Under the pieces are notes generated by a model. That model had not been told where the DNA came from and did not search any database. It saw only the letters and a program-made list of their open reading frames with translations. This document shows, piece by piece, positions 32,308 through 62,944 of a DNA stretch of 64,000 bases. Both the position numbers and the translations under genes were made by a program. Within the stretch, counting starts at the first letter, position 1. Each line of letters begins with the position of its first letter. Source of the stretch: Syntrophotalea acetylenica (GTDB lineage Bacteria > Desulfobacterota > Desulfuromonadia > Desulfuromonadales > Syntrophotaleaceae); NCBI RefSeq assembly GCF_001888165.1, contig NZ_CP015455.1:1296001-1360000 (forward strand), written 5' to 3'.

Positions 32308-32391
32308 AAGTGAAAGGTGAAAGGTGAAAGGTGAGAGGTGAGAGGTGAGAGGTGAGAGGTGAGAGGTGAGAGGTGAGAGGTGAGAGGGAGT
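32308..32391 (+). repeat. Heptamer tract upstream of bioB
   Basis: GTGAAAG repeats change to GTGAGAG repeats, about 12 units in all, inside the 5' leader of bioBD. The last units run into GAGGGAG, the ribosome site of bioB. Confidence 0.92.
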
Positions 32392-35796: not shown

Positions 35797-36030
35797 ATCT
35801 TACAGCTTGCAACTTACAACTTACAACTTACAACTTACAGCTTACAACTTACAGCTTACAACTTACAGCTTACAACTTACAACTTAACTTACAACTTACA
35901 ACTTACAACTTACAACTTACAACTTACAACTTACAACTTACAACTTACAACTTACAACTTACAGCTTACAGCTTACAGCTTACAGCTTACAGCTTACAGC
36001 TTACAGCTTACAGCTTACAGCTTACAGCTG
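35797..36030 (+). repeat. Long CTTACAA/CTTACAG heptamer tract ahead of bioA
   Basis: About 33 tandem 7-mers, mostly CTTACAA then switching to CTTACAG, with one odd short unit near 35883. It is the longest heptamer tract in the window. Its last units run into GAGGTAAAATATT, the ribosome site of bioA. Its reading frame would encode a seven-residue repeat (TTYNLQL type), which I do not regard as a gene. Confidence 0.95.
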
Positions 36031-45837: not shown

Positions 45838-47175
45838 ATGAACCTGACCGTCATCGGAACCGGCTATGTCGGACTTGTTACCGGCACCTGCTTTGCGGAA
45901 ATGGGCAACACCGTCACCTGCGTCGACACCGACCCCGCCAAGGTCGCCCAGCTCGGGCAGGGCCAGATTCCGATATTCGAGCCGGGCCTGGACGCGATGG
46001 TGAAAAACAACAGCAAGGACGGCCGCCTGCGTTTTACCACCTCGCTGGCCGAAGCCATGGCCGACTCGCAGATCTATTTCATCGCGGTGGGCACGCCCTC
46101 CAATGGCGATGGCAGCGCCGATCTTCGGCAGGTGCTCGCCGTGGCGCGGGAAATCGGCCGCCATCTGAACGCCTATGGCGTGGTGGTGGACAAGTCGACG
46201 GTGCCGGTGGGCACAGCAGAGAAGGTGCGCGAGGCCATTCAGGGTGAATTGCAAAGCCGCGGCGTGAACATCGATTTCGATGTGGTCAGCAACCCCGAAT
46301 TTCTCAAGGAGGGCGCCGCCATCGACGACTTCATGCGGCCCGATCGCATTATCGTCGGCAGCGACAGCGACCGTGCCCGGGAGATCATGCGGCAGCTCTA
46401 CGCGCCCTTCAACATGAATCGCGACCGTACCCTGTACATGGGGGTGCGCGATGCGGAGATGACCAAGTATGCCGCCAATGCCATGCTCGCCACCAAGATC
46501 TCCTTCATCAACGAGATTGCCGGGTTGTGCGATCGGCTCGACGTCGATGTGGAGAATGTGCGCCTCGGCATCGGCTCCGACGCGCGTATCGGTTACTCCT
46601 TTATCTATCCCGGCTGCGGCTACGGCGGCTCCTGCTTTCCCAAGGACGTCAAGGCCATCATCCACCTGGCTGAAAGCTGCCGCTTCGAGCCCAGGCTGCT
46701 GCGCTCCGTCGAGGAGCGCAACCAGGCGCAGCGCCGGGTTCTGTGCCAGAAAGTCCGCGAACGCTTCGGCGACGATCTCAGCGGCTTGACCTTCGGTGTC
46801 TGGGGACTGGCCTTCAAGCCCGGCACCGACGACCTGCGCGAAGCGCCGGCGGTGGTGCTGCTGCACGAACTGATCGGCGCCGGCGCCAAAGTTCGCGCCT
46901 ACGATCCGGTCGCCATGGACGCCGCCCGCCGCCAGCTGCCGGCGGCCTGGTTCGACAACGGCGATCTGGTACTCTGCGAGCACCAGTACCATGCCTTGCA
47001 GGACGTCGATGCCATGATCCTGGTCACCGAGTGGAAACCCTTCCGCACCCCCGATTTCCACGCCATGCGCAAGTTGATGAAACAGCCGGTCATCTTCGAC
47101 GGTCGCAACCAGTATGAACCGCAAACTGTCAAACAAGCCGGATTCGAGTATCAAGGCATTGGGCGTAAAAGCTGA
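45838..47175 (+). CDS. ugd: UDP-glucose 6-dehydrogenase
   Basis: The 445-aa protein begins MNLTVIGTGYVGLVTGTCFA (NAD-binding), and has FLKEGAAIDDFMRPDRIIVG and the catalytic Cys266 in GYGGSCFPKDVKAI. It oxidises UDP-glucose to UDP-glucuronate, the substrate of the epimerase 570 bp downstream. The TGA stop lies inside an AAAGCTGAA heptamer-like word. Confidence 0.95.
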   Translation: MNLTVIGTGYVGLVTGTCFAEMGNTVTCVDTDPAKVAQLGQGQIPIFEPGLDAMVKNNSKDGRLRFTTSLAEAMADSQIYFIAVGTPSNGDGSADLRQVLAVAREIGRHLNAYGVVVDKSTVPVGTAEKVREAIQGELQSRGVNIDFDVVSNPEFLKEGAAIDDFMRPDRIIVGSDSDRAREIMRQLYAPFNMNRDRTLYMGVRDAEMTKYAANAMLATKISFINEIAGLCDRLDVDVENVRLGIGSDARIGYSFIYPGCGYGGSCFPKDVKAIIHLAESCRFEPRLLRSVEERNQAQRRVLCQKVRERFGDDLSGLTFGVWGLAFKPGTDDLREAPAVVLLHELIGAGAKVRAYDPVAMDAARRQLPAAWFDNGDLVLCEHQYHALQDVDAMILVTEWKPFRTPDFHAMRKLMKQPVIFDGRNQYEPQTVKQAGFEYQGIGRKS

Positions 47176-47217: not shown

Positions 47218-47717
47218 AACTGGGATAAAGGGGATGGAGGGGATTTTTTAGATCAAAATTCAGGCTCATTCAAAGGAACTCAATTTTGCAATACGATGAC
47301 ATAACCAAACTGATATTGCAGGCTTGTTTTGAAGTTAGTAACGAGTTGGGTAGTGGCTTTCTTGAGTCTGTTTATGAAAAATCACTTCTTGTAGCATTAG
47401 AGGATCTTGGCTTGAATGCCCGAGCACAGGTCCCAATTAAAGTAAATTTTCGAAATAGGGTAGTTGGCGATTATTTTGCTGATATCATGGTGAATAATCA
47501 GGTGCTTATTGAATTAAAAGCAGTGAAAAAATTGGCACCTGAACATGTCGCACAGGTTTTGAATTATCTCAAGGCATCCAAAATCGAAGCCGGACTCTTG
47601 GTAAATTTCGGTAATCCTCGATTGGAATATAGGCGTTTTAATAATTACTCAAGTCCGATATAGATTTGAATTTTCTTTAATTGAGCTTTTATCTTATCCA
47701 TCCCCTTTATCTCAGTT
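47218..47717. mobile_element. 500-bp unit with inverted repeat ends carrying a GxxExxY gene
   Basis: The left end AACTGGGATAAAGGGGATGG (47218) and the right end CCATCCCCTTTATCTCAGTT (ending 47717) are complementary over 21 positions with one mismatch. The only gene inside is the 125-aa GxxExxY protein, and the DNA inside is far more AT-rich than the flanking genes. No target duplication is evident. The ends match those of 72-bp units at 58264, 58594, 60147 and 61845. Confidence 0.7.
47286..47663 (+). CDS. GxxExxY family protein
   Basis: A TTG start gives 125 aa. The family signature is GFLESVY within [19 protein letters not shown], followed by [20 protein letters not shown], which resembles a PD-(D/E)XK nuclease core, and [20 protein letters not shown]. 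The family is widespread but of unknown function and often associated with repeats. The gene is AT-rich and sits between ugd and the epimerase, breaking a polysaccharide operon. It is enclosed by inverted repeat ends. Confidence 0.88.
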
Positions 47718-47748
47718 AACATGGGGTTTCTTTTTTAGGAGTTTGCCA

Positions 47749-48756
47749 GTGCAAAAGATTCTCGTTACGGGAACGGCCGGTTTTATTGGTTTTCACCTGG
47801 CCAAGGTACTGCTCGACCGTGGCGACGAGGTCGTCGGGCTTGACAACCTCAACGACTACTACGACGTCAGTCTCAAACAGGCCCGTCTGGCGCAGCTCGA
47901 TGGGCGTCCCAACTTCCGCTTCGTCAAGCTCGACCTGGCCGATCGCGACGGCATGGCGGCGCTGTTCAAGACGGAAAAATTCGACCGGGTGGTCAACCTG
48001 GCCGCCCAAGCGGGTGTGCGTTACTCCCTGAAAAATCCCCATGCCTACATCGACAGCAACCTGGTCGGCTTTGTCAATATCCTGGAAGGCTGCCGCCACA
48101 ACGAGGTGCAGCATCTGGTCTATGCCTCGTCCTCGTCGGTGTACGGCGCCAACACCCGCATGCCGTTTTCCATCCACCACAATGTCGATCATCCGGTGTC
48201 CCTGTACGCGGCCTCCAAAAAAGCCAACGAGCTGATGGCGCACACCTATGCCCACCTGTACCGCCTGCCGGTCACCGGCCTGCGGTTTTTTACCGTTTAC
48301 GGACCCTGGGGCCGCCCCGACATGGCCCTGTTTCTGTTCACCAAAGCGATTCTGGAGGGCAGGCCCATCGATGTGTTCAACTATGGCAAAATGCGCCGCG
48401 ATTTTACTTACATCGACGATATCGTCGAAGGCGTGATGCGCACCCTGGACAACACCGCCCGCCCCAATCCCCAGTGGAACGGCGATCAGCCCGATCCCGG
48501 CACCAGCAACGCACCTTACCGCCTGTACAATATCGGCAACAACAATCCTGTCGAGCTTATGCACCTGATCGAAACCCTGGAAAAAGCCCTTGGCCGGACT
48601 GCGGAGAAAAACCTCCTGCCAATCCAGCCCGGCGATGTGCCCGCCACCTACGCCGATGTCGACGACCTGACCCGCGATGTTGGTTTTAAACCTTCCACCA
48701 GTATCGAGGAGGGGGTTGGCAGGTTCGTGGCGTGGTATCGGGGGTATTTTCGGTAG
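47749..48756 (+). CDS. UDP-glucuronate 4-epimerase (NAD-dependent epimerase)
   Basis: The GTG at 47749 has AGGAG at good spacing; a TTG two codons earlier is too close to it. The 335-aa SDR protein has [56 protein letters not shown] and the catalytic [11 protein letters not shown]. The NDYYDVSLK and [15 protein letters not shown] blocks are typical of UDP-glucuronate 4-epimerases, which would make UDP-galacturonate from the Ugd product. Confidence 0.88.
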
Positions 48757-48796
48757 GGGGGGAAGGCGGGACGCGATTTGCGGGTTGCGGGACGCG

Positions 48797-48918
48797 GAAC
48801 CCGCCGCAGGCGGGCCAGGAGCCGGGGTGCCCTTTTTCTGTTTACTCTTTTTGGGCAAGCAAAAAGAGTGAAGCGCCGGGCGGGGGCGCTACCCCGCGGT
48901 ATTGAAGTTAAGGGTTGA
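48797..48918 (+). repeat. Dispersed structured repeat, copy R9 (right end only)
   Basis: Only hairpin D and the right end are present, fused at CGGGACGCGG to a different repeat (CGCGTCCCGC type) 40 bp after the epimerase stop. Confidence 0.9.
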
Positions 48919-49023
48919 GAGCTGAGGACTGCGCACTGAGAGCTGAGTGCTGAGTGCTGAGAGCTGAGAGCTGAGTGCTGAGTGCTGAGTGCTGAGTGCT
49001 GAGTGCTGAGTGCTGAGTGCTGA
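48919..49023 (+). repeat. Heptamer tract (GTGCTGA type)
   Basis: AGAGCTG and GTGCTGA units, about 14 copies, lie between R9 and R10. Confidence 0.9.
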
Positions 49024-49530
49024 ACCTTTTACTTCAACTTCGCCGGTCCCGGCCGGCAGCCGGCATACTTTCTTTACTCGTCTAAAGAAAGTATGGAAAG
49101 AAAGGACGCAGGGTCGGCTATCGCCATTATGATAGGCTCCGGCTCCAAGGGTGCTGCCTTTTGGCACCGGCGCTGCGAATTTATACCGGTTGCACTGCGT
49201 AGGGCTTTTGCGTGACCTTAGTGCGTCGCCAGTTTTCAGCTGGGCTGTTACAGAAACCGGCGCTGCTAGATTGGTTTGACGGCAAACCCGGTTTGCCGTC
49301 CATTTCCCCTTGTGACGCCGCCGGAGTGCGGTGGCCGATGGGCGAAACAGGCGGAAATCTGAGCGTAAGCGAATCATTTCCGCCCGCCCGGCGGGTGCTG
49401 CACGGAGGGAACCCGCCGCAGGCGGGCCAGGAGCCGGGGTGCCCTTTTTCTGTTTACTCTTTTTGGGCAAGCAAAAAGAGTGAAGCGCCGGGCGGGGGCG
49501 CTACCCCGCGGTATTGAAGTTAAAAGTTGA
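49024..49530 (+). repeat. Dispersed structured repeat, copy R10 (full length)
   Basis: Full element. Hairpin A is of the CATACTTTCTTTA type and hairpin B of the GACGGCAAACC type. Several single-base changes (ACCTTAGTGCG, GGGCTGTTACAG) show it has been in place for some time. Confidence 0.95.
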
Positions 49531-49569
49531 GAACTGCGGACTGGTAGCTGTAAGCTGCGAGCTGAGGTC

Positions 49570-50087
49570 AAAAGCTTTTAGTTCCACTTCGCCGGTCCCG
49601 GCCGGCAGCCGGGTGGCTTTCTTTGCTCGTCCAAAGAAAGTCACCAAAGAAAGGACGCAGGGTCGGCTATCGCCATTATGATAGGCTCCGGCTCTATGGG
49701 CGCTGCCTTGTGTCAGCGGCGCTGCCCGTTTGGTGGGGTTGCGCTGCGTAGGGCTTTTGCGTATCGGTATTGCGTCGCCAGTTTTGCTGGTAGGCTGTTG
49801 CGGAAACCGGCGCTGCTAGATTGGTTTACGGCAAACCCGGTTTGCCGTTATGCCGTTTCTTCCCCCTTGTGACGCCGCCGGAGTGCGGTGGCCGACGGGC
49901 GAAACAGGCGGAAATCTGAGCGTAAGCGAATCATTTCCGCCCGCCCGGCGGGTGCTGCACGGAGGGAACCCGCCGCAGGCGGGCCAGGAGCCGGGGTGCC
50001 CTTTTTCTGTTTACTCTTTTTGGGCAAGCAAAAAGAGTAAAGCGCCGGGCGGGGGCGCCACCCCGCGGTATTGAAGTTAAAGGTTGA
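49570..50087 (+). repeat. Dispersed structured repeat, copy R11 (full length, hairpin A variant)
   Basis: Hairpin A reads GTGGCTTTCTTTG / CAAAGAAAGTCAC instead of CATACTTTCTTTA / TAAAGAAAGTATG, with matching changes in both arms. The middle has CTCTATGGGCGC and CCCGTTTGGTGGGG, also a distinct subtype. Confidence 0.95.
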
Positions 50088-50140
50088 GGGCTGATAGCTG
50101 TAAGCTGCGAGCTGAGTGCTGTAAGCTGCGAGCTCAGTTC

Positions 50141-50496
50141 AAAAGCTTTTACTTCAACTTCGCCGGTCCCGGCCGGCAGCCGGGTGGCTTTCTTTGCTCG
50201 TCCAAAGAAAGTCACCAAAGAAAGGACGCAGGGTCGGCTATCGCCATTATGATAGGCTCCGGCTCTATGGGCGCTGCCTTGTGTCAGCGGCGCTGCCCGT
50301 TTGGTGCGATTGCGCTGCGTAGGGCTTTTGCGTATCGGTATTGCGTCGCCAGTTTTGCTGGTAGGCTGTTGCGGAAACCGGCGCTGCGAGATTGATTTAA
50401 AACGGCGGAGCCGTTTTATTCCCCCTTGTGACGCCGCCGGAGTGCGGTGGCCGACGGGCGAAACAGGCGGAAATCTGAGCGTAAGCGAATCATTTC
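50141..50496 (+). repeat. Dispersed structured repeat, copy R12 (right end missing)
   Basis: It carries the GTGGCTTTCTTTG hairpin A variant like R11 and a short hairpin B (AAAACGGC-GGA-GCCGTTTT). It stops within hairpin C at GAATCATTTC, where a heptamer tract takes over. Confidence 0.93.
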
Positions 50497-50595
50497 TTAT
50501 AGCTTATAGCTGAGTTCTGATGTCTTACAGCTTACAGCTTACAGCTTACAGCTGCTATCTGGTTGTTACAATTGTGATCTGAAAGCTGAAGATTT
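50497..50595 (+). repeat. Heptamer tract upstream of the transporter gene
   Basis: CTTATAG, CTTACAG and related units, ending in AAAGCTGAAG, which also serves as the purine-rich ribosome site of the next gene. Confidence 0.85.
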
Positions 50596-52374: not shown

Positions 52375-52379
52375 AAAGG

Positions 52380-52556
52380 TACGAGGCTAAAGGCCAAAGG
52401 CCAAAGGTGAAAGGCCCGAGGCCAAAGGCCAAAGGTTAAAGCAAGGGGCAAGGCTGAATAAGTTAAAAACCCATTCAAGATGTTTATATTGCAGGACTTT
52501 TGTTTATTTTGAGATTCTACCTCGGGCCTCGGGCCTCGGGCCTCGGGCCTGCTTTT
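52380..52556. repeat. Inverted pair of heptamer tracts upstream of cysD
   Basis: AAAGGCC and CGAGGCC units (52385-52440) face GGCCTCG units (52522-52556) across about 80 bp of AT-rich sequence, so the transcript could form a long stem. The AT-rich part (AAAACCCATTNAAGAT, TTTATATTGCAGG) is repeated almost exactly at 55665-55742. Confidence 0.88.
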
Positions 52557-53641: not shown

Positions 53642-55528
53642 GTGAGTCATAAATCAAATCTAATCGCCGAAGACATTCATCAATATCTAAAAAAGCAGGA
53701 AGAAAAATCGATGCTGCGCTTCATCACCTGCGGCAGTGTCGACGATGGCAAGAGTACCCTGATCGGGCGGTTGCTGTGGGATTCGAAGTTGATCTTCGAG
53801 GATCAGCTGGCTGCGCTGGAGGCCGACAGCAAGCGGGTCGGCACCCAGGGCGAGGATGTCGATTACGCGCTGTTGCTCGACGGTCTGCAGGCCGAGCGGG
53901 AGCAGGGCATCACCATCGACGTGGCGTATCGGTTTTTCTCCACCGACAAGCGCAAATTCATCGTCGCCGATACGCCCGGGCACGAGCAGTACACCCGCAA
54001 CATGGTCACCGGCGCCTCCACCGCCGAGGTGGCCATCATCCTCATCGACGCCCGCAAGGGGGTGCTGACCCAGACCCGGCGCCACAGCTACCTGGTCTCT
54101 CTGGTGGGGATCCGCCACGTGGTGCTGGCCATCAACAAGATGGACCTGGTGGACTACGCCGCCAGCCGCTTCCACAGCATCCGCGAGGAATACGAAACCT
54201 TCGCCGCCGGGCTCGGTTTCGAGGATGTCACCGCCATCCCCATCTCCGCCCTCAAGGGGGACAACGTCATCGAGGCCAACGGCCACACCCCCTGGTACCA
54301 GGGGCCGCCCCTGCTGGAGTATCTGGAAACAGTGCAGGTCGTCGATGACGCCGCGTCCCGGCCGTTCCGCATGGCGGTGCAGTGGGTCAACCGTCCCAAC
54401 CTCGATTTCCGGGGCTTTTCCGGCACCATCGCCTCCGGCACCCTGCGCCCCGGCGATGAGGTTGTGGTGCCGTCCTCCGGGCAGAAAAGCACCGTGGCCC
54501 GCATCGTGACCATGGACGGCGATTTGTCGCAGGCCGTCGCCGGGCAGGCCGTGACCCTGACCTTGCAGGACGAGATCGACATCAGCCGCGGCGACCTGCT
54601 GTCCGCCCCCCTGGCGCGCCCCATCCATACCGATCAGCTGCGGGCGCATGTGGTGTGGATGCACGAGGAGCCCCTGCTGCCGGGACGCGGCTACCTGCTC
54701 AAGACCGGCTGCACCACCGTCCCGGCCCAGATCAGCGATCTGCGGCGCAAGGTCAACGTCAACACCCTGCAGCAGGAACCCGGCAAAACCCTGGGCCTCA
54801 ACGAGGTCGGGGTGTGCAACCTCAGCCTCGGCAAGGCGATCTCCTTTGACCCCTACAAGGAAAACCGCGCCACCGGCAACTTCATCCTCATCGACCGCTT
54901 CAGCAACGCCACCGTCGGCGCCGGCATGATCGACTTCGCCCTGCGCCGCGCCGACAACATTCACTGGCAGGCTCTCGATATCAACAAACAGGCCCGCGCC
55001 GAACAAAAAGGGCAAAAACCGCGCGTGCTGTGGTTCACCGGCCTGTCCGGTTCCGGCAAATCGACCATCGCCAACCTGGTGGAGAAAAAACTCCACTCCA
55101 TGGGCAAACACAGCTACATCCTCGACGGCGACAACGTGCGCCACGGCCTCAACCGCGATCTCGGCTTCACCGACGCCGACCGCGTCGAAAACATCCGCCG
55201 CGTCGCCGAAACCGCCAAACTGTTCGTCGATGCCGGCCTCATCGTGCTGGTGTCCTTCATCTCCCCCTTCAAAAGCGAACGCCAGCTGGCCCGCGACCTG
55301 CTGGAGCCGGGCGAGTTCATCGAGGTGTACGTCAACACCCCGCTGGCGGTCTGCGAACAGCGCGACCCCAAAGGCCTCTACAAAAAAGCCCGCGCCGGAC
55401 AACTCAAAAACTTCACCGGCATCGACTCCGCCTACGAAGCCCCGGAAAAGCCGGAGATCGTTGTTAACGGCGCGGAGAAGTCTGCGGAGGAACTGGCGGA
55501 GGAGATTGTGCGGGAGGTGTTTGGGTAG
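53642..55528 (+). CDS. cysNC: Bifunctional sulfate adenylyltransferase subunit 1 / adenylylsulfate kinase
   Basis: A GTG start (AAAGGAAGATACT ahead) gives 628 aa. The first 440 residues are the EF-Tu-like GTPase CysN (P-loop [39 protein letters not shown]). From about residue 460 lies the APS kinase CysC ([49 protein letters not shown]). The fusion makes PAPS from sulfate with CysD. GC content is higher than in the flanking repeats. No PAPS reductase is beside it. Confidence 0.96.
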
Positions 55529-55540
55529 CGGACCGCGGGA

Positions 55541-55797
55541 CGCGGCCAAAGGCCCGAGGTGAAAGGCCCGAGGCCAAAGGCCGAAGGTTAAAGGTGAAAG
55601 GTGAAAGGTGAAAGGTGAAAGGTGAAAGGCCCGAGGCCAAAGGCCCGAGGTTAAAGGTTAAAGCAAGGGGCAAGGCCGAAAAAGTTAAAAACCCATTTAA
55701 GATATTTATATTGCAGGCCTTTTGTTTGTTTTGAGATTCTATCTCGGGCCTCGGGCCTCGGGCCTCGGGCCTCGGGCCTCGGGCCTCGGGCCTGAAA
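55541..55797. repeat. Inverted heptamer tracts between cysNC and the S23-like gene
   Basis: Units CCCGAGG, CCAAAGG and GTGAAAG (55541-55665) face CGGGCCT units (55744-55796) across a segment nearly identical to 52440-52515. The tract ends at GAAAGGAG, the ribosome site of the following gene. Confidence 0.9.
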
Positions 55798-55805
55798 GGA
55801 GTGCC

Positions 55806-56183
55806 ATGCGTTTTGAGGATTTGGAGGTATGGAAGCGTGGGTCTCGGTTGAGTGCAGAAATTTACAAAGAACTTGGCCAACTAAGAGACTTTGGGTTCAG
55901 AGACCAAATCACCCGCGCAGGCCTTTCGATTCCCAGTAATATCGCGGAAGGGTTTGAGCGGGAATCCGATAGAGATTGCATTAAATTTCTCCTTTACGCA
56001 AAGGGCTCATGTGGTGAACTGCGCACACAAATATATATAGGGATGGAAATTGACTATATCTCGAAAAAATCCGGAACTGCCTGGGTAAAAGAAACGGTAG
56101 AGATTTCCTGTATGCTCGGTGGCCTGATCAACTCCAAACGCTCTTTTCTTCAGAAAAAAGAAAATTCAGGGAAAAATAAATGA
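55806..56183 (+). CDS. Four-helix bundle protein of the 23S rRNA intervening-sequence (S23) family
   Basis: The ATG after AAAGGAGTGCC gives 125 aa: MRFEDLEVWKRGSRLSAEIY, QITRAGLSIPSNIAEGFERE, KFLLYAKGSCGELRTQIYIG and VKETVEISCMLGGLINSKRS. These blocks (DLEVW, SIPSNIAEG, GSxxELxTQ) define the S23/IVP family, first found in rRNA intervening sequences but also common as orphan genes near repeats. Function is unknown. It is AT-rich, lies between cysNC and cysQ and overlaps cysQ by ATGA. Confidence 0.9.
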   Translation: MRFEDLEVWKRGSRLSAEIYKELGQLRDFGFRDQITRAGLSIPSNIAEGFERESDRDCIKFLLYAKGSCGELRTQIYIGMEIDYISKKSGTAWVKETVEISCMLGGLINSKRSFLQKKENSGKNK

Positions 56184-57043
56184 ATAAATCGAACACAAAC
56201 CAAACTTCAGATCCTTCTATAAATGGTTCGCAAAATAGCTCAGTGCCTTTTGATTTCAAACCTTTGGCCTCGGGCCTCGGGCCTCGGGCCTTAGAGCAAC
56301 TCTGCCAGATTGCGAAAAAGGCAGGGACAGCAATTTTGGAAGTTTACAACGGCGAAATCGCCGTCGAAACAAAATCCGACAACTCCCCCCTGACCGCTGC
56401 CGACAAAGCCTCCCACCAGGTCATCGCGGCCGGGCTGGAGGCGCTGACGCCGGAGATTCCGATCCTGTCGGAAGAGGGCAAGGACATCCCTTACCAGGAG
56501 CGCAAAAACTGGCGGCGCTTCTGGCTGGTCGATCCGCTGGACGGCACCAAGGAGTTTATCAAGCGCAACGGCGAGTTTACCGTGAATATCGCCCTGATCG
56601 AGGGCGGCGCGCCGGTTCTGGGCGTGGTGTATGTGCCGGTGCAGGACAAGCTGTATGTCGGGGTCGTGGGGCAGGGAGCCTACGTGCAGCAGGCTGACGC
56701 GCAACCCGAGCCGATTCAGGTGCGCACGCCCGATGCGCAAGCCGGCCTGACGGTGGTGATGAGCCGCTCCCATCCGTCGCCCGAATTGGCGGAGTATCTG
56801 AAGAATATCGAAGTGGCTGAAGCGCTGCCGGTGGGCAGCTCGCTGAAGCTGTGCGTGGTAGCGGAAGGCCGGGCGGATCTGTATCCACGCCTCGGCCCCA
56901 CCATGGAGTGGGATACCGGCGCGGGCCAGGCGGTGGTGGTGGCCGCCGGCGGCACGGTGCAGACCCCCGACGGCGCGCCGCTGGGGTACAACAAGCCCAG
57001 CCTGCTGAACCCGCATTTCATCGTGCGGGGCGCTCGGGCATAG
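56180..57043 (+). CDS. cysQ: 3'(2'),5'-bisphosphate nucleotidase with chimeric N-terminus
   Basis: The 287-aa product contains the inositol-phosphatase-fold motifs ETKSDNSPLTAADKASHQ, ILSEEG and the metal-binding LVDPLDGTKEFIKRNGEF, plus WDTGAGQAVVVAAGG. CysQ removes the 3'-phosphate of PAP, the by-product of sulfotransferases. Family members usually start near LEQLCQIAKKAG, here residue 38. The extra N-terminus is asparagine- and serine-rich, then reads PLASGLGPRAL from a CGGGCCT heptamer tract. I see no better start codon, so the added segment seems to be translated, coupled to the S23 stop. Confidence 0.9.
   Translation: MNKSNTNQTSDPSINGSQNSSVPFDFKPLASGLGPRALEQLCQIAKKAGTAILEVYNGEIAVETKSDNSPLTAADKASHQVIAAGLEALTPEIPILSEEGKDIPYQERKNWRRFWLVDPLDGTKEFIKRNGEFTVNIALIEGGAPVLGVVYVPVQDKLYVGVVGQGAYVQQADAQPEPIQVRTPDAQAGLTVVMSRSHPSPELAEYLKNIEVAEALPVGSSLKLCVVAEGRADLYPRLGPTMEWDTGAGQAVVVAAGGTVQTPDGAPLGYNKPSLLNPHFIVRGARA
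56262..56293. repeat. Heptamer tract inside the cysQ reading frame
   Basis: TTGGCCT, CGGGCCT, CGGGCCT, CGGGCCT lie in frame in the first part of cysQ and encode PLASGLGPRAL. They have the same orientation as the tract ahead of the S23 gene, so the S23 gene is bracketed by direct repeats. Confidence 0.9.
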
Positions 57044-57419: not shown

Positions 57420-58258
57420 CCATAACGTCAAGGGCATGCACCGCAGAGGACGCAGAGAACGCGGAGAATAAATTTCCGGATAACATCTGATCAACGTCAA
57501 AGGCATGCACCACAGAGCCACAGAGGACACGGAGAACATCACAGAGACAACCTCTGCCGTTGCCTGCCCTCTGTGCTCTCTGTGTCTCTAGCGAGAGAAA
57601 CGAGCGGGTGGTGAAGGTTTTTGGGTTTATGATGAAAGCCAAGGCATGCACCACAGAGCCACAGAGGACACGGAGAAAAACCACAGAGCCAACCTCTGCC
57701 GTTGCCTTTCCTCTGTGCTCTCTGTGTCTCTAGCGAGAGAAACGAGCGGGTGGTGAAGGTTTTTGGGTTTATGATGAAAGCCAAGGGCGTGCACCACAGA
57801 GCCACAGAGGACACGGAGAACATCACAGAGCCAATCTCTGCCGTTGCCTCTCCTCTGTGCTCTCTGTGCCTCTAGCGAGAGAAACGAGCGGGTGGTGAAG
57901 GTATCCAGGGTGTAGATCCGCGTGAATCCGCGCGCATCAGATTGGATCCGCGTTCCATTCAGGGCCACGGTCATGCAAACCAAGGTTTCCGCGTCCCGCA
58001 ACCCGCAAACCGCGTCCCGGAATTTAAAACCAATAGAACACGGATTGCCAAAACTTTCACCACAGAGCCACAGAGGACACAGAGAAAAACCACAGAGCCA
58101 ACCTCTGCCGTTGCCTTTCCTCCGTGCTCTCTGTGTCTCTAGCGAGGGAAGCGAGCGGGTGGTGAAGGTTTTTGGGTTTATGACAAAAAGCCAAGGCAAT
58201 AGAACGCGGATGACGCGGAAACTTCTGGATAAAATCTGATTACAACAAAATAAAAAGC
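57420..58258. repeat. Mosaic repeat array I (CACAGAG units)
   Basis: Units of about 141 bp begin near 57503, 57644, 57787 and 58062, each CACAGAGCCACAGAGGACAC ... CTCTGTGTCTCTAGCGAGAG followed by GGTGGTGAAGGTTTTTGGG. The two halves are complementary. A CGCGGAT/CGCGTCCCGCAA block (57905-58030) interrupts them. No gene is seen. Confidence 0.9.
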
Positions 58259-58263
58259 GATTT

Positions 58264-58335
58264 AACTGGGATCAAGGGGATAAAAGGGATGAGAAGCCAA
58301 AGGATTTTATCTCGTTCATCTCCTCCATCTTAGTT
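58264..58335. repeat. 72-bp AACTGGGAT hairpin unit, copy 1
   Basis: AACTGGGATCAAGGGGAT on the left and ATCTCCTCCATCTTAGTT on the right pair imperfectly. Ends match those of the GxxExxY unit at 47218-47717. Confidence 0.85.
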
Positions 58336-58593
58336 GCAAAAAGTTTTTAAGGTTTAACCCGTGTGCATCATCATCTACTGAAGAAACCGGAGAAACGTCA
58401 CCAGTTGCAAAAAGTTTTTAAGGTTTAACCCGTGTGCATCCGCCGTTATCTGTGGTGAATAAAAGGTTTTGCTTTAAGAATTTAAAGGCATTATCGAACA
58501 CAGATAACAGCGGATAAGGTCAAAGGCAATAGAACGCGGATGACGCGGAAACTTCTGGATAAAATCTGATTACGACAAAATAAAAAGCGATTT
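58336..58593. repeat. ACAGATAAC hairpin and flanking repeated words
   Basis: GCAAAAAGTTTTTAAGGTTT occurs twice; CATCCGCCGTTATCTGTGGT faces AACACAGATAACAGCGGATA, forming a long imperfect hairpin. It is part of a cassette repeated at 58666, 60219 and 61917. Confidence 0.85.
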
Positions 58594-58665
58594 AACTGGG
58601 ATAAAGGGGATAAAAGGGATGTGAAGCCAAAGGATTTTATCTCGTTCATCTCCTCCATCTTAGTT
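58594..58665. repeat. 72-bp AACTGGGAT hairpin unit, copy 2
   Basis: Same as copy 1 with GATAAAGGGGAT and GATGTGAAGCC variants. Confidence 0.85.
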
Positions 58666-58960
58666 GCAAAAAGTTTTTAAGGTTTAACCCGTGTGCATCC
58701 GCCGTTATCTGTGGTGAGTAAAAGGCTTTGGGTGTAGATCCGCGTAAATCCGCGTGCATCAGATTGGATCCGCGTTCCATTCAGGGCCACGGTCATGCAA
58801 ACCAAGGTTTCCGCGTCCCGCAACCCGCAACCCGCGTCCCGGAATCTAAGGTTTTCGCGTCCCGCAAACCGCAAACCGCGTCCTGGAATTTCTCCGTGCA
58901 CATCGGACCTTATCCGTGTACTATTCACAGGATCAGCAGTTTTAACAAACAGGGGCGGGC
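58666..58960. repeat. Mosaic repeats ahead of the MntA-HepT genes
   Basis: Repeat of the GCAAAAAGTTTTTAAGG block, ATCCGCGTAAATCCGCG words, and CGCGTCCCGCAACCCGCAA words. No gene is seen. Confidence 0.8.
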
Positions 58961-58962
58961 AC

Positions 58963-59382
58963 ATGCCAGAAAACAGCGCACAGATCGATACTATCGCGGC
59001 ATTTCTCCGCCGGCAGGCGACGGTCCGATTTGCCTACCTGTTCGGATCCCGGGCCCGGGGCGATGCCGGGCGGCTGAGCGACATCGACATTGCGGTGTTT
59101 CTCGATCCGGGCCTTGACCTATTCACCTGCCGTCTGCAGCTCATGGAGCAACTGGCCGTCACCCTGCACAGCGATCGTTTCGACTTGGTGGTGCTCAACG
59201 ATGCCCCAACCACCCTGCGCTACGAAGTGATTCGCGATGGCCGGGTGCTCAAGGAAGACAAGCCCCTCCGGGTCGATTTTGAAACCGGCGTTCTGCGCGG
59301 CTATCTTGACACCGCCCCGTTGCGGAAGACGCAGCAGGCCTATCTCAGGCAGCAACTGGCGGGGGAGAGGAACCATGGTTAA
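58963..59382 (+). CDS. mntA: MntA-type nucleotidyltransferase (antitoxin)
   Basis: The ATG of MPENSAQIDTIAAFLRRQ gives 139 aa. The minimal nucleotidyltransferase motif GSRARGDAGRLSDIDIAV (G28-S29 ... D40-x-D42) is intact. MntA proteins inactivate partner HepT toxins by adding AMP to a tyrosine. Its last codons overlap the next gene by eight bases. Confidence 0.88.
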   Translation: MPENSAQIDTIAAFLRRQATVRFAYLFGSRARGDAGRLSDIDIAVFLDPGLDLFTCRLQLMEQLAVTLHSDRFDLVVLNDAPTTLRYEVIRDGRVLKEDKPLRVDFETGVLRGYLDTAPLRKTQQAYLRQQLAGERNHG

Positions 59383-59788
59383 CAAAAACGTGCTCGCAGC
59401 CCGACTGGACAGGCTGCGGGAATACCTCGATATGCTCAAGGCCATTCAAGCCTACACGTTGACGGATTTTATCAAGGATCCCTTCGTGTACTGCGCCGCC
59501 GAGCGGTATCTGCATCTGGCCATAGAATGCCTGCTGGATATCGGCAACCATGTCATATCCGACCGCGGCTATATCAAGCCAGACAGCTATGCCGACGTTT
59601 TCAGGATACTCGGCGACAACGAGGTCATACCGGCACCCCTCTGCCGGGAGCTGGAAGGCATGGCCTCCTTCCGCAATCTGCTGGTACACGATTATCTCAG
59701 ACTGGACCGCCAGAAGGTCTACCAGATCATCCAGGGTAAGGTTAAAAGCCTGGAGCAGCTTGCAGCAGTATTCGCCGAACTGTTCTGA
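59375..59788 (+). CDS. hepT: HepT-type HEPN toxin (ribonuclease)
   Basis: The 137-aa helical protein has the HEPN RNase motif RX4HXY as R100NLLVH105DY107, the tyrosine being the site modified by MntA. The overlap with mntA and matching partner make a type VII toxin-antitoxin pair. GGGGAGAGG precedes the ATG. The pair is enclosed on both sides by mosaic repeats. Confidence 0.88.
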   Translation: MVNKNVLAARLDRLREYLDMLKAIQAYTLTDFIKDPFVYCAAERYLHLAIECLLDIGNHVISDRGYIKPDSYADVFRILGDNEVIPAPLCRELEGMASFRNLLVHDYLRLDRQKVYQIIQGKVKSLEQLAAVFAELF

Positions 59789-59819
59789 TCTTCAAAACCA
59801 AGGGCATAACATCAGATAA

Positions 59820-60146
59820 CGTCAAAGGCATGCACCGCAGAGGACGCAGAGAACGCAGAGAAAATCATAGAGCCAAACTCTGCCTTTGCCTCTCCTCTGT
59901 GCTCTCTGTGCCTCTAGCGAGAGAAACGAGCGGGTGGTGAGAGCCTGTGATTATAATCGAATATGAAGTTATCCGTGTGCATCCGCCGTTATCTGTGGTG
60001 AATAAAAGGATTTGCTCTAAGAATTTAAAGTCATTATCGAACACAGATAAAATCGGATAACAGCGGATAAGGTCAGAGGCAATAGAACGCGGATGACGCG
60101 GAAACTTCTGGATAAAATCTGATGACGACAAAATAAAAAGCGATTT
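59820..60146. repeat. Mosaic repeat array II
   Basis: One CACAGAG unit (with CGCAGAGGACGCAGAG variants, 59828-59940) and one ACAGATAAC hairpin (about 59970-60075) lead into the next AACTGGGAT unit. No gene is seen. Confidence 0.85.
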
Positions 60147-60218
60147 AACTGGGATAAAGGGGATAAAAGGGATGTGAAGCCAAAGGATTTTATCTCGTTC
60201 ATCTCCTCCATCTTAGTT
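60147..60218. repeat. 72-bp AACTGGGAT hairpin unit, copy 3
   Basis: Identical in its key parts to copy 2 (GGGATAAAGGGGATAAAAGG on the left, CATCTCCTCCATCTTAGTT on the right). Confidence 0.85.
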
Positions 60219-60430
60219 GCAAAAAGTTTTTAAGGTTTAATCCGTGGGCATCCGCCGTTATCTGTGGTGAATAAAAGGTTTTGGGTGTAAATCCGCGTAA
60301 ATCCGCGTGCATCAGATTGGATCCGCGTTCCATTCAGGGCCACGGTCATGCAAACCAAGGTTTCCGCGTCCCGCAACCCGCAACCCGCGTCCCGGAAACC
60401 AAGGTTTCCGCATCCAACCCCCAAACAAGG
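60219..60430. repeat. Mosaic repeats ahead of galE
   Basis: Same order of GCAAAAAGTTTTTAAGG, CATCCGCCGTTATCTGTGG and CGCGTCCCGCAACCCGCAA words as at 58666-58850. It runs to within 10 bp of the galE start. Confidence 0.85.
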
Positions 60431-60436
60431 AACCTT

Positions 60437-61411
60437 ATGAATATTTTAGTCTGCGGCGGGGCCGGTTATATCGGCTCGCACATGGTCAAAATGCTGACCG
60501 AGGCCGGTCATCACACCACAACCTTTGACAACCTCTCCACCGGTCATCGCCTGGCGGTCCAGTGGGGCGAGCTGGTGATCGGCGATCTGCTTGACGAAGC
60601 AGCCCTGCGCGGGCTGTTCGCCGAGCGTCGCTTCGATGCGGTGATGCACTTTTCCGCCAAATCCCTGGTGGGCGAGTCGGTGGCCCAGCCGGCCGCCTAC
60701 TACCGCAACAACGTCATCGGCACCTTCAACCTCCTCGAAGCGATGCGCGCCGCCGGCGTGTCGTGCTTCGTGTTCTCCTCCTCCGCCGCCACCTTCGGCA
60801 ACCCCGTCGCCGGGCGCATCGACGAGCAGCACCCCCAAGCGCCCATCAACCCCTACGGCGAGACCAAGCTGATTGTGGAGCGCATGCTGCGCGACTACGC
60901 CGCCGCCTACGGCCTGCGCTCCGTCAGCCTGCGCTACTTCAACGCCGCCGGCGCCGATCCGGCCGGGCACATCGGCGAAGCCCACGATCCCGAGACCCAC
61001 CTGATCCCCAACGTGCTCAAGGCCGCCCTCGATCCCGCCAAGCAGCTGAAGGTCTTCGGCCAGGACTATGCCACCCCCGACGGCACCTGCGTGCGCGACT
61101 ACATCCACATCAACGACCTGTGCCAGGCGCACCTGTTGGCCCTCGGCCACATGGAGCACCATCAGGGCGCCCACGGCTTCAACCTCGGCAACGGCCAGGG
61201 CTTCTCCATCCTCGAGATCATCCGCGCCGCCGAGCAGGTCACCGGTCAAAAAATCCCCTACCAGGCCTGCGAACGCCGCCCCGGCGACCCGCCGACCCTG
61301 GTCGCCGACGCCACCCGCGCCAGACAACAACTCGGCTGGCAACCCCAATACACCGAAATCACGGAGATTCTCCGCACCGCCTGGCACTGGCACCGTAAAC
61401 AATTGTATTAG
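60437..61411 (+). CDS. galE: UDP-glucose 4-epimerase
   Basis: The 324-aa SDR protein starts MNILVCGGAGYIGSHMVKML and has TFDNLSTGHRLAVQWGE, VFSSSAATFGNPV, the catalytic YGETKLIVERMLRDYAAAYG and RYFNAAGADPAG. It interconverts UDP-glucose and UDP-galactose for the polysaccharide. CAAGGAACCTT precedes the ATG. Codon use is GC-rich, unlike the repeats around it. Confidence 0.94.
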   Translation: MNILVCGGAGYIGSHMVKMLTEAGHHTTTFDNLSTGHRLAVQWGELVIGDLLDEAALRGLFAERRFDAVMHFSAKSLVGESVAQPAAYYRNNVIGTFNLLEAMRAAGVSCFVFSSSAATFGNPVAGRIDEQHPQAPINPYGETKLIVERMLRDYAAAYGLRSVSLRYFNAAGADPAGHIGEAHDPETHLIPNVLKAALDPAKQLKVFGQDYATPDGTCVRDYIHINDLCQAHLLALGHMEHHQGAHGFNLGNGQGFSILEIIRAAEQVTGQKIPYQACERRPGDPPTLVADATRARQQLGWQPQYTEITEILRTAWHWHRKQLY

Positions 61412-61844
61412 AAGGTTAAATTGGTCAGAAAATTGCTTACGTAAAAGCAGTAAAGTCAAAGGCCAAGGCAAAAGGATAAGACAAAAAGCCAAGGCATGCA
61501 CCACAGAGCCACAGAGGACACAGAGAACATCACAGAGCCAACCTCTGCCGTTGCCTTTCCTCTGTGCTCTCTGTGTCTCTAGCGAGAGAATCGAGCGGGT
61601 GGTGAAGGTTTTTGGGTTTATGATGAAAGCCAAGGCATGCACCACAGAGCCACAGAGGACACGGAGAACATCACTGAGACAACCTCTGCCGTTGCCTTTC
61701 CTCTGTGCTCTCTGTGTCTCGAGCGAGAGCATCGAGCGGGTGGTGAAGGTTTTTGGGTTTATGACAAAAAGCAAAGGCAATAGAACGCGGATGACGCGGA
61801 AACTTCTGGATAAAATCTGATTACGACAAAATAAAAAGCGATTT
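61412..61844. repeat. Mosaic repeat array III, first part
   Basis: Two CACAGAG units in tandem (about 61494-61635 and 61636-61770) follow galE. No gene is seen. Confidence 0.88.
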
Positions 61845-61916
61845 AACTGGGATAAAGGGGATAAAAGGGATGTGAAGCCAAAGGATTTTATCTCGTTCAT
61901 CTCCTCCATCTTAGTT
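61845..61916. repeat. 72-bp AACTGGGAT hairpin unit, copy 4
   Basis: Same as copies 2 and 3. Confidence 0.85.
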
Positions 61917-62240
61917 GCAAAAAGTTTTTAAGGTTTAATCCGTGTGCATCCGCCGTTATCTGTGGTGAATAAAAGGCTTTGCTTTGCGAATTTAAAGTCA
62001 TTATCGAACACAGATAAAATCGGATAACAGCGGATAACGTCAAGGGCATGCACCACAGAGCCACAGAGGACACGGAGAACATCACAGAGCCAACCTCTGC
62101 CGTTGCCTTTCCTCTGTGCACTCTGTGCCTCTAGCGAGAGAAGCGAGCGGGTGGTGAAGATTTCCAGCGGTCTTGCAAAAAAGGTTTTTCGCGTCCCGCA
62201 AACCGCAAACCGCGTCCCGGAATCTAAGGTTTCCGAATGA
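61917..62240. repeat. Mosaic repeat array III, second part
   Basis: An ACAGATAAC hairpin (about 61945-62035), a CACAGAG unit (62047-62165) and CGCGTCCCGCAAACCGC words lead to the glmS fragment region. No gene is seen. Confidence 0.85.
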
Positions 62241-62575: not shown

Positions 62576-62944
62576 ACAACGTCCCCTCCTCGGCCCCTGA
62601 CCGAAGAATGCATCAAAGCCTTTGGGCCTATCCCTCGGGCGATGCGCCAAACTTTGACCCTGGACAATGGGTCGGAATTTGCGAATTTCAAAGAACTGGA
62701 AAAGAAGACCCAACTGAAGGTTTACTTCGCTGATCCCTATGCCGCATGGCAACGAGGTGCCAACGAAAACTCCAATGGCTTACTGCGGCAATATTTTCCC
62801 AAGGGAACCGACTTTCGCAAAATCGAGGAAGACGCAGTTGCTGATGCCGTCAAAAGGTTAAACAACAGGCCACGAAAATGTCTCGGATACCGGACACCCC
62901 ATGAAGTGTTCTGGCCTATGGCCCGTGGTGCACTTGCAAATTGA
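62576..62944 (+). pseudogene. IS30-family transposase, C-terminal fragment
   Basis: The open frame from 62576 reads LTEECIKAFGPIPRAMRQ, TLTLDNGSEFANFKELE and ANENSNGLLRQYFPKGTDF, then NNRPRKCLGYRTPHEVF. These are the second Asp and the Glu of the DDE triad and the conserved end of IS30 transposases. The helix-turn-helix and first Asp are missing. Its 5' edge lies about 50 bp after the broken glmS, so IS30 insertion and deletion probably destroyed both. Confidence 0.9.

Follow-up and report, generated by a model that had tools for sequence, protein, structure and literature searches.

The arrangement closest to the one described here is that of the REPtrons, which consist of TnpAREP/RAYT genes, REP palindromes and REPINs, and in which one nuclease gene lies between short inverted repeats while many gene-less palindromes occupy intergenic positions of the same genome. 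Co-evolution of gene and repeat is reported for these systems (PMC8266576, PMC3116915). A second group is formed by the MITEs, which are gene-less, carry terminal inverted repeats and reside in spacers, and which are derived from transposase-bearing insertion sequences. Among these, Chunjie of Geobacter uraniireducens is the nearest described repeat in the bacteria studied here; to judge from a title cited in PMC10969869, it is inserted in an operon the structure of which is undisturbed. The genus Geobacter also harbors multicopy intergenic sequences: in G. bemidjiensis, families of palindromes and direct repeats occupy 12% of the spacers, with several families in one spacer (passages of PMC2996986 and PMC2700814). 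In these passages no gene is tied to the repeats, and PMC2996986 makes no mention of a nuclease.

The locus that we compared with these systems lies in a window of 64,000 nucleotides, which is the whole stretch of DNA that was analysed. It contains a cassette of about 500 bp (47218–47717, plus strand), recognized by its inverted ends and by comparison with other genomes, which is placed between two co-directional sugar-nucleotide genes. According to profile matches, these encode a UDP-glucose/GDP-mannose dehydrogenase upstream (45838–47175, plus strand) and an NAD-dependent epimerase downstream (47743–48756, plus strand). The left arm is the word array CTGGGAT-AGGGGAT-AGGGGAT (47218–47244, plus strand), and the right arm is an inverted copy that reads AACTGAGATAAAGGGGATGGATAAGAT on the minus strand (47691–47717). 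The inverted repeat itself pairs 47218–47238 with 47697–47717 (21 nt, 95% complementary), and the 18-nt end AACTGGGATAAAGGGGAT is exact at the left end (47218) and present with one mismatch, inverted, at 47700–47717. The cassette thus has the terminal inverted repeats of an insertion sequence or MITE; its only content is a gene of the PD-(D/E)XK type, and a transposase of the DDE, HUH or serine/tyrosine type is absent from it. The genome carries three GxxExxY genes in total, all with inverted arms; the short word that is repeated in the arms differs from gene to gene. The region 3' of the epimerase gene (48676–50500) further holds a repeat of about 550 bp in three copies (repeat families D4, D6 and D12).

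The gene inside the cassette (47286–47663, plus strand) encodes a protein of 125 amino acids that belongs to the GxxExxY/PDDEXK_3 family, with scores of 136.3 bits for TIGR04256 (cut-off 35) and 136.8 bits for PF13366 (cut-off 22). These are the only families that were matched, and the product is not an HUH-type enzyme of the IS200/IS605-like kind that defines REPtrons. The nuclease active site is well conserved in 113 proteins (E 0.99, D 0.99, E 0.97, K 1.0); among 89 proteins, D66 and K78 are invariant and E76 is found in at least 90%. A sequence search for a solved relative gave no hit at a meaningful E-value (best 0.52), but the structure model (mean pLDDT 94.3) matched best to 4ic1 (SSO0001), which we take to be a Cas4 (E 8.3e-6, Z 10.6, 99 residues). 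The next matches were restriction-type and RecB-type nucleases, with lambda exonuclease, MGME1 and AddAB among the followers. Cas4 proteins possess a four-cysteine cluster. The GxxExxY protein resembles Cas4 and RecB-type nucleases in modeled fold and in active site, whereas it is half the size of Cas4 and lacks such a cluster, with one cysteine in the window protein and none in the invariant or nearly invariant columns. The model thus predicts a small Cas4/RecB-like nuclease. Two other roles were considered and rejected. A function in anti-phage defence is not indicated by comparison of four proteins with PADLOC (best E 0.00015, 18.7 bits, partial), and PHROG matches were weak and partial. 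A phage origin is not indicated either, as no match was found in 50,697 phage records; a scan of viral contigs with one protein, which detects close relatives only, was also negative. A search for literature on mobility of GxxExxY, TIGR04256 or PF13366 found no paper, most subscription journals being outside its coverage.

To what extent the arms belong to the gene can be judged from a survey of 118 genomes of one order, of which 73 gave a GxxExxY match and 45 had none detectable. From about 150 places, 115 loci were read, fragments and some intact genes being left out at first. Inverted flanks with a match score of at least 13 bracket 101 of 110 GxxExxY genes (five of the 115 loci were omitted as partial or short-flanked, and the 3' flank was taken from the domain end), as compared to 5 of 1100 shuffled flanks and 252 of 2750 combinations of flanks from different loci, the latter figure being inflated by words that different loci have in common. 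In an earlier, stricter count with the 3' flank taken from the stop codon, 80% of 112 GxxExxY genes passed, against 2 of 71 control ORFs; this value is lower because some right arms sit inside the 3' end of the gene. The arms consist mostly of three copies of a 7-nt word that are spaced 8–10 bp and face inward from either end. Such arrays were found close to 92 of the 115 genes and to 1 of 115 after shuffling, and the spacing was 8–10 bp in 114 of 117 arrays when 7–12 bp was permitted, mostly with the same spacing twice. The words include CACAGAG, CACGAAG, CACCAAG, CGCAAAG, CGCAGAG, CGCGAAG, CACGAAT, CGCAGAT, CACGGAA and GGGAT types.

From this and from the evidence given below, we consider it probable, though by a modest degree of confidence, that a GxxExxY gene and its two arms form a discrete mobile element of about 0.5 kb which is run by a Cas4-like nuclease, and that gene-less units with the same kind of ends are related to it. 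Although its arrangement is closest to that of the REPtrons, including the presence of gene-less palindromes akin to the flanks of the gene, we do not file it there because the enzyme class differs: RAYT/TnpAREP is an HUH enzyme related to the IS200/IS605 transposases, whereas GxxExxY is a PD-(D/E)XK protein with a predicted Cas4-like fold. Other differences are the ends, which are word arrays with a spacing of 8–10 bp, and the co-directional position of the gene in operons. An autonomous gene with gene-less palindromes is a known kind of arrangement, but there is a fair chance that this one forms a class of its own. Chunjie, likened here by description only, might be one of the gene-less word units.

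The words follow the protein lineage. When 15 word classes were placed on a tree of 113 proteins, 27 changes were needed, the minimum over 200 shuffles being 65; the tree is a quick maximum-likelihood tree from a short alignment with many forks unresolved, and the words of 103 rows were labeled by hand ahead of the drawing of the tree, with 10 rows left without label. The deepest split in the protein tree has a support of 100 on either side. The last letter of the word is G in 34 of 35 rows of one deep clade and in 0 of 28 of the other, counting words read by script and required on both sides of the gene (63 of 113 rows); the lone exception, CGAAGAA, is taken for a register-shifted CACGAAG. 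This agreement shows that gene and word constitute a unit of inheritance across sites, and plain co-inheritance of gene and arms suffices for it: since they are physically linked, it can be explained without recognition of the word by the protein. The same linkage would fit a different scenario, in which other machinery spreads the units and the GxxExxY gene was trapped between two of them as a passenger, with word and protein agreeing due to co-travel. The occurrence of units in spacers around unrelated genes is in line with such a passenger role, but the recurrence of one gene family inside the arms (the 101 of 110 cases mentioned above) is not, and no other family was noticed among the loci that were read. 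We regard trapping as unlikely, also in view of the distribution of gene-less units treated below. A separate observation concerns the CGCGAAG cassettes L003, in the genome of the window, and L102, in a genome (G024) of another family of the order. On the downstream side the flanks of the two cassettes share 94% identity over 352 bases, which suggests recent transfer between the two families.

A typical gene-less unit consists of two arms separated by a loop some tens of bases long. Tandem multiplication of words is seen, and so is nesting of units: at L266 (G034) and L256 (G046), units lie within the loop of one that has a different word. The number of words shifts by whole steps of 9 bp, as in one array with a run of about 12 words and in orthologous units, of which one species has a version with three words and the other a version with two (L265 in G034; L267 and L271 in G040 and G109; L255 and L278 in G046 and G035). 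In the window, gene-less units of several words (CGCAGAG, CACAGAG and GGGAT types) form a cluster at 57422–62225, without assigned strand, which is defined by word arrays and repeat families D1, D3, D8–D10 and D14 and surrounds an epimerase gene and a type VII toxin–antitoxin pair, MntA/HepT (58795–59788).

The preliminary description drew attention to four 72-bp units in this cluster, all on the plus strand, that have their ends in common with the cassette. This similarity is real. The 18-nt end is present with one mismatch in the unit at 58264–58335, and AACTGGGATAAAGGGGAT is exact in those at 58594–58665, 60147–60218 and 61845–61916. At up to three mismatches it occurs nine times in the window, three of these matches being register-shifted and within three of the units, against an expected number of 0.02, and nine was reached in none of 100 shuffles. 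The right end of all four is ATCTTAGTT, the 9-nt right end being one letter off that of the cassette. Chance similarity of ends or arms was considered and rejected on the basis of shuffled controls for the window, the word arrays and the flanks. The four units do not represent separate insertions: they lie in one register inside four composite repeats of about 300 nt (starting at 58173, 58503, 60056 and 61754; repeat family D2 and flank comparison) that together span 58173–62053 on the plus strand, and the sequence adjoining them on either side is the same in all four. Since they were copied within a longer repeat, they are not a display of the protein at work. The best reading is that one gene-less unit was later multiplied together with its surroundings. 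A search of the whole genome (3.2 Mb, E up to 10) with the 72-mer found no further full copy; of the eight places obtained, four are the units, two are the ends of the cassette, and the other two are matches with lengths of 15 and 17 nt.

A more informative relation between genes and gene-less units is obtained when genomes are compared. If arm pairs are counted as pairs of neighboring words, with four words summed, the median number of gene-less arm pairs is 17 in the 73 gene-bearing genomes versus 2 in the 45 without gene (p 5e-8), and at least ten are present in 55 of 73 versus 11 of 45. None of the four counted words was found in 7 of the 73 gene-bearing genomes; many genes use other words. 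A control with reversed patterns was near zero in most genomes, with G053 (14 for CACAGAG) and G007 (37 for CACCAAG) as exceptions. The relation also holds word by word, the arms of the genes themselves being subtracted. Genomes with a gene of the matching word exceed other gene-bearing genomes for CGCAAAG (p 5e-5), CACGAAG (p 0.004) and CACCAAG (p 0.003), where matching refers to genes with arms read only, so that some non-matching genomes may carry unread matching genes. For CACAGAG alone, no excess was found in CACAGAG-gene genomes over other gene-bearing genomes (p 0.19); the genome of the window has 31 CACAGAG arm pairs, yet none of its three genes has that word. When 37 gene–word pairs were taken jointly, the mean log2 count was 3.45, as compared to permutation values of 1.33 order-wide, 2.33 within families and 2.89 within genera. 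The corresponding p values are 5e-5 order-wide and within families, which is the floor of 20,000 draws, and 0.0036 within genera.

The correlation across genomes that was proposed earlier as a check is therefore present, and it persists for matched words within genera. The proposed relation between an autonomous element and gene-less derivatives is supported in part: co-occurrence argues for it, word by word, but the expectation that unit-rich genomes lacking the gene would be absent was not borne out, as is clear from the 11 of 45 gene-free genomes with ten or more arm pairs. The most prominent of the genomes without detectable gene are G003 with 109 arm pairs, G106 with 37, G062 with 26 and G110 with 24. 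These genomes are in line with the trapping of a passenger gene; the tracking of genes by gene-less units of their own word, both within genera and in the sister pair discussed next, argues against that scenario. G003 belongs to the genus of the window and is 99% complete; it may have had a GxxExxY gene in the past.

The sister genomes G035 and G046 have flanks of 90–99% identity at five sites. The meaB-mce spacer is occupied by a CACCAAG cassette (L127) in G035 and by another cassette, with AACGGAGAG ends (L305; TIGR04256 130 bits), in G046. G035 contains 115 CACCAAG arm pairs versus 4 in G046. At two of the five shared spacers, a gene-less unit is of the CACGAAG type in G046 and of the CACCAAG type in G035, at one site a common unit is one 9-bp word shorter in G035, and at the remaining two sites the spacers are wholly unlike. 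Gene-less AACGGAGAG units are present in both genomes, at dozens of places at least in each, among the matches listed. A change of one word into another in place was considered for sites 2 and 3 and is unlikely, the loops being dissimilar by eye; site 3 of G035 shows an additional partial duplication. For this one pair, the pattern is as expected if a new gene brings a burst of units with its own word. The presence of different cassettes in the same spacers, and of units nested or replaced at one place, could also suggest that the arms are targets instead of ends, and that a free-standing homing nuclease invades gene-less units that are older and spread by themselves. The latter possibility seems very improbable to us, since a role as target only does not predict that new gene-less units arise together with a gene of their own word, as in G035 compared with G046.

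The proposal of a mobile element is also in agreement with the variety of cassettes at shared sites. The udg-epimerase spacer holds a GGGAT cassette in G000 and G001 (orthologous, with proteins 95% identical) and, in G005, a cassette of the other deep clade with CACGAAG words; in G004 it has no cassette, the sole GxxExxY match of this genome being 14 kb away. The spacer between meaB and mce (names from NCBIfam at L119) holds the cassettes of 14 of 113 tree rows; these rows fall into three distinct regions of the tree (three changes), and their words are CGCAAAG, CGCGGAG/CGCAGAG, CACCAAG and CGGAGAG. Among 11 genomes of one genus, the state of this spacer could be read in seven: it is filled in six (G040, G058, G077, G086, G099 and G048) and empty in G101, where stop and start codon are 37 bp apart. 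The spacer of G101 may be a bare site for cassette entry, provided that no unit has ever been there. Comparison of filled with empty or refilled spacers (G013 with G033 and G045, at about 70–92% identity in matching pieces; G040 and relatives; G035 and G046) gave no clean junction. Neither a target-site duplication nor an exact junction was readable in these comparisons, the spacers being too different to align, as even sister species have unlike sequence over the whole distance between stop and start codon.

The insertions have a preferred orientation. In 36 of the 115 loci, in which the strand of both neighbors could be called by ORF length, the gene runs along with both in 30, against both in 1 and mixed in 5; without the meaB loci these numbers are 29, 1 and 5. 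The five annotated plasmid records also have the GxxExxY gene co-directional with both neighbors. Such placement could result from selection for expression, from harm done by antisense copies or from the mode of insertion. The strong co-directionality in operon spacers would also suit action at the RNA level, with the arms, which are inverted repeats of a median length of 32 nt, pairing in the operon transcript and the gene located in the loop, and with the protein acting as an RNA-binding nuclease, toxin or regulator. Where the two arms differ, however, G-U pairs are not favored (in 101 arm pairs, 158 transitions preserve a G-U pair and 140 abolish pairing, p 0.32), which is a weak argument against a role of the RNA stem; the predicted fold and active site are of the DNA-nuclease type, and the words spread without the gene. 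We therefore think that an RNA-based role is distinctly unlikely.

Returning to the mobile element, the protein would bind the word arrays at both ends and would cut or trim DNA there or at target sites. The element might then be copied into spacers by recombination or replication of the host, often with replacement of an older unit. Gene-less units would be mobilised in trans. The gene probably does not need a promoter and would be expressed by read-through from the operon. The joining of DNA is beyond what a nuclease can do alone, which counts against this reading. More tentatively, and with slightly more doubt than belief, we suggest a class of transposase-free mobile elements whose only protein is a Cas4-like nuclease of some 125 residues. 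Its recognition sites would be inverted arrays of 7-nt words, each protein lineage having a word of its own with a final letter that depends on the deepest clade, and the nuclease would spread both its own cassette and gene-less units among operon spacers, where units with other words would be replaced.

GxxExxY is a named family to which no function is attached, and it is present in 73 of the 118 genomes of the order and on plasmid records from five phyla. Should these genes be the autonomous partners of the word repeats, a great many intergenic repeats that now lack an explanation would gain an owner. If the above is true, a recognition code that relates protein lineage to DNA word would be readable from sequence alone, an element that seemingly moves by means of a nuclease without transposase would become testable, and the repeats that fill the spacers of a genome would be determined by its resident genes. 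Sister genomes in which spacers are refilled with another word are natural experiments in this respect.

Outside the order, arms were read for seven genes only, which were the GxxExxY genes found in 7 of 72,556 plasmid records. In these genes, which come from other phyla, the bracketing arms scored above all 200 shuffles in three of seven cases and no better than shuffles in four; among the latter, a complete unit with two arms lies downstream of one gene, and another gene is flanked on either side by a direct repeat. When 84,980 species genomes were scanned for exact matches to the 18-nt end, 14 stretches were obtained, of which eight are from one Sumerlaeota genome and several of the others look to be within coding sequence. 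A GxxExxY gene was found in none of the 14 stretches, which were at most 8 kb, with a weak two-sequence profile. The exact 18-nt end is also part of gene-less two-armed units in a Sumerlaeota and a Desulfuromonadaceae genome (L017, L020), so that the same word occurs across phyla.

The window contains some further sequences of related interest. An integrase core domain fragment (rve_3, under the curated cut-off) at 62642–62944 is probably a remnant of an insertion sequence. Contiguous arrays of 7-nt words occur at 32310–32386, 35799–36020 and 48941–49017. A gene for a four-helix-bundle protein (23S rRNA intervening-sequence protein, 55722–56183) lies amid contiguous tandem 7-nt words such as CTCGGGC and GTGAAAG, with tandem-word regions at 52375–52550 and 55513–56297, and with its unspaced words this gene looks like a parallel of the rule seen for GxxExxY.
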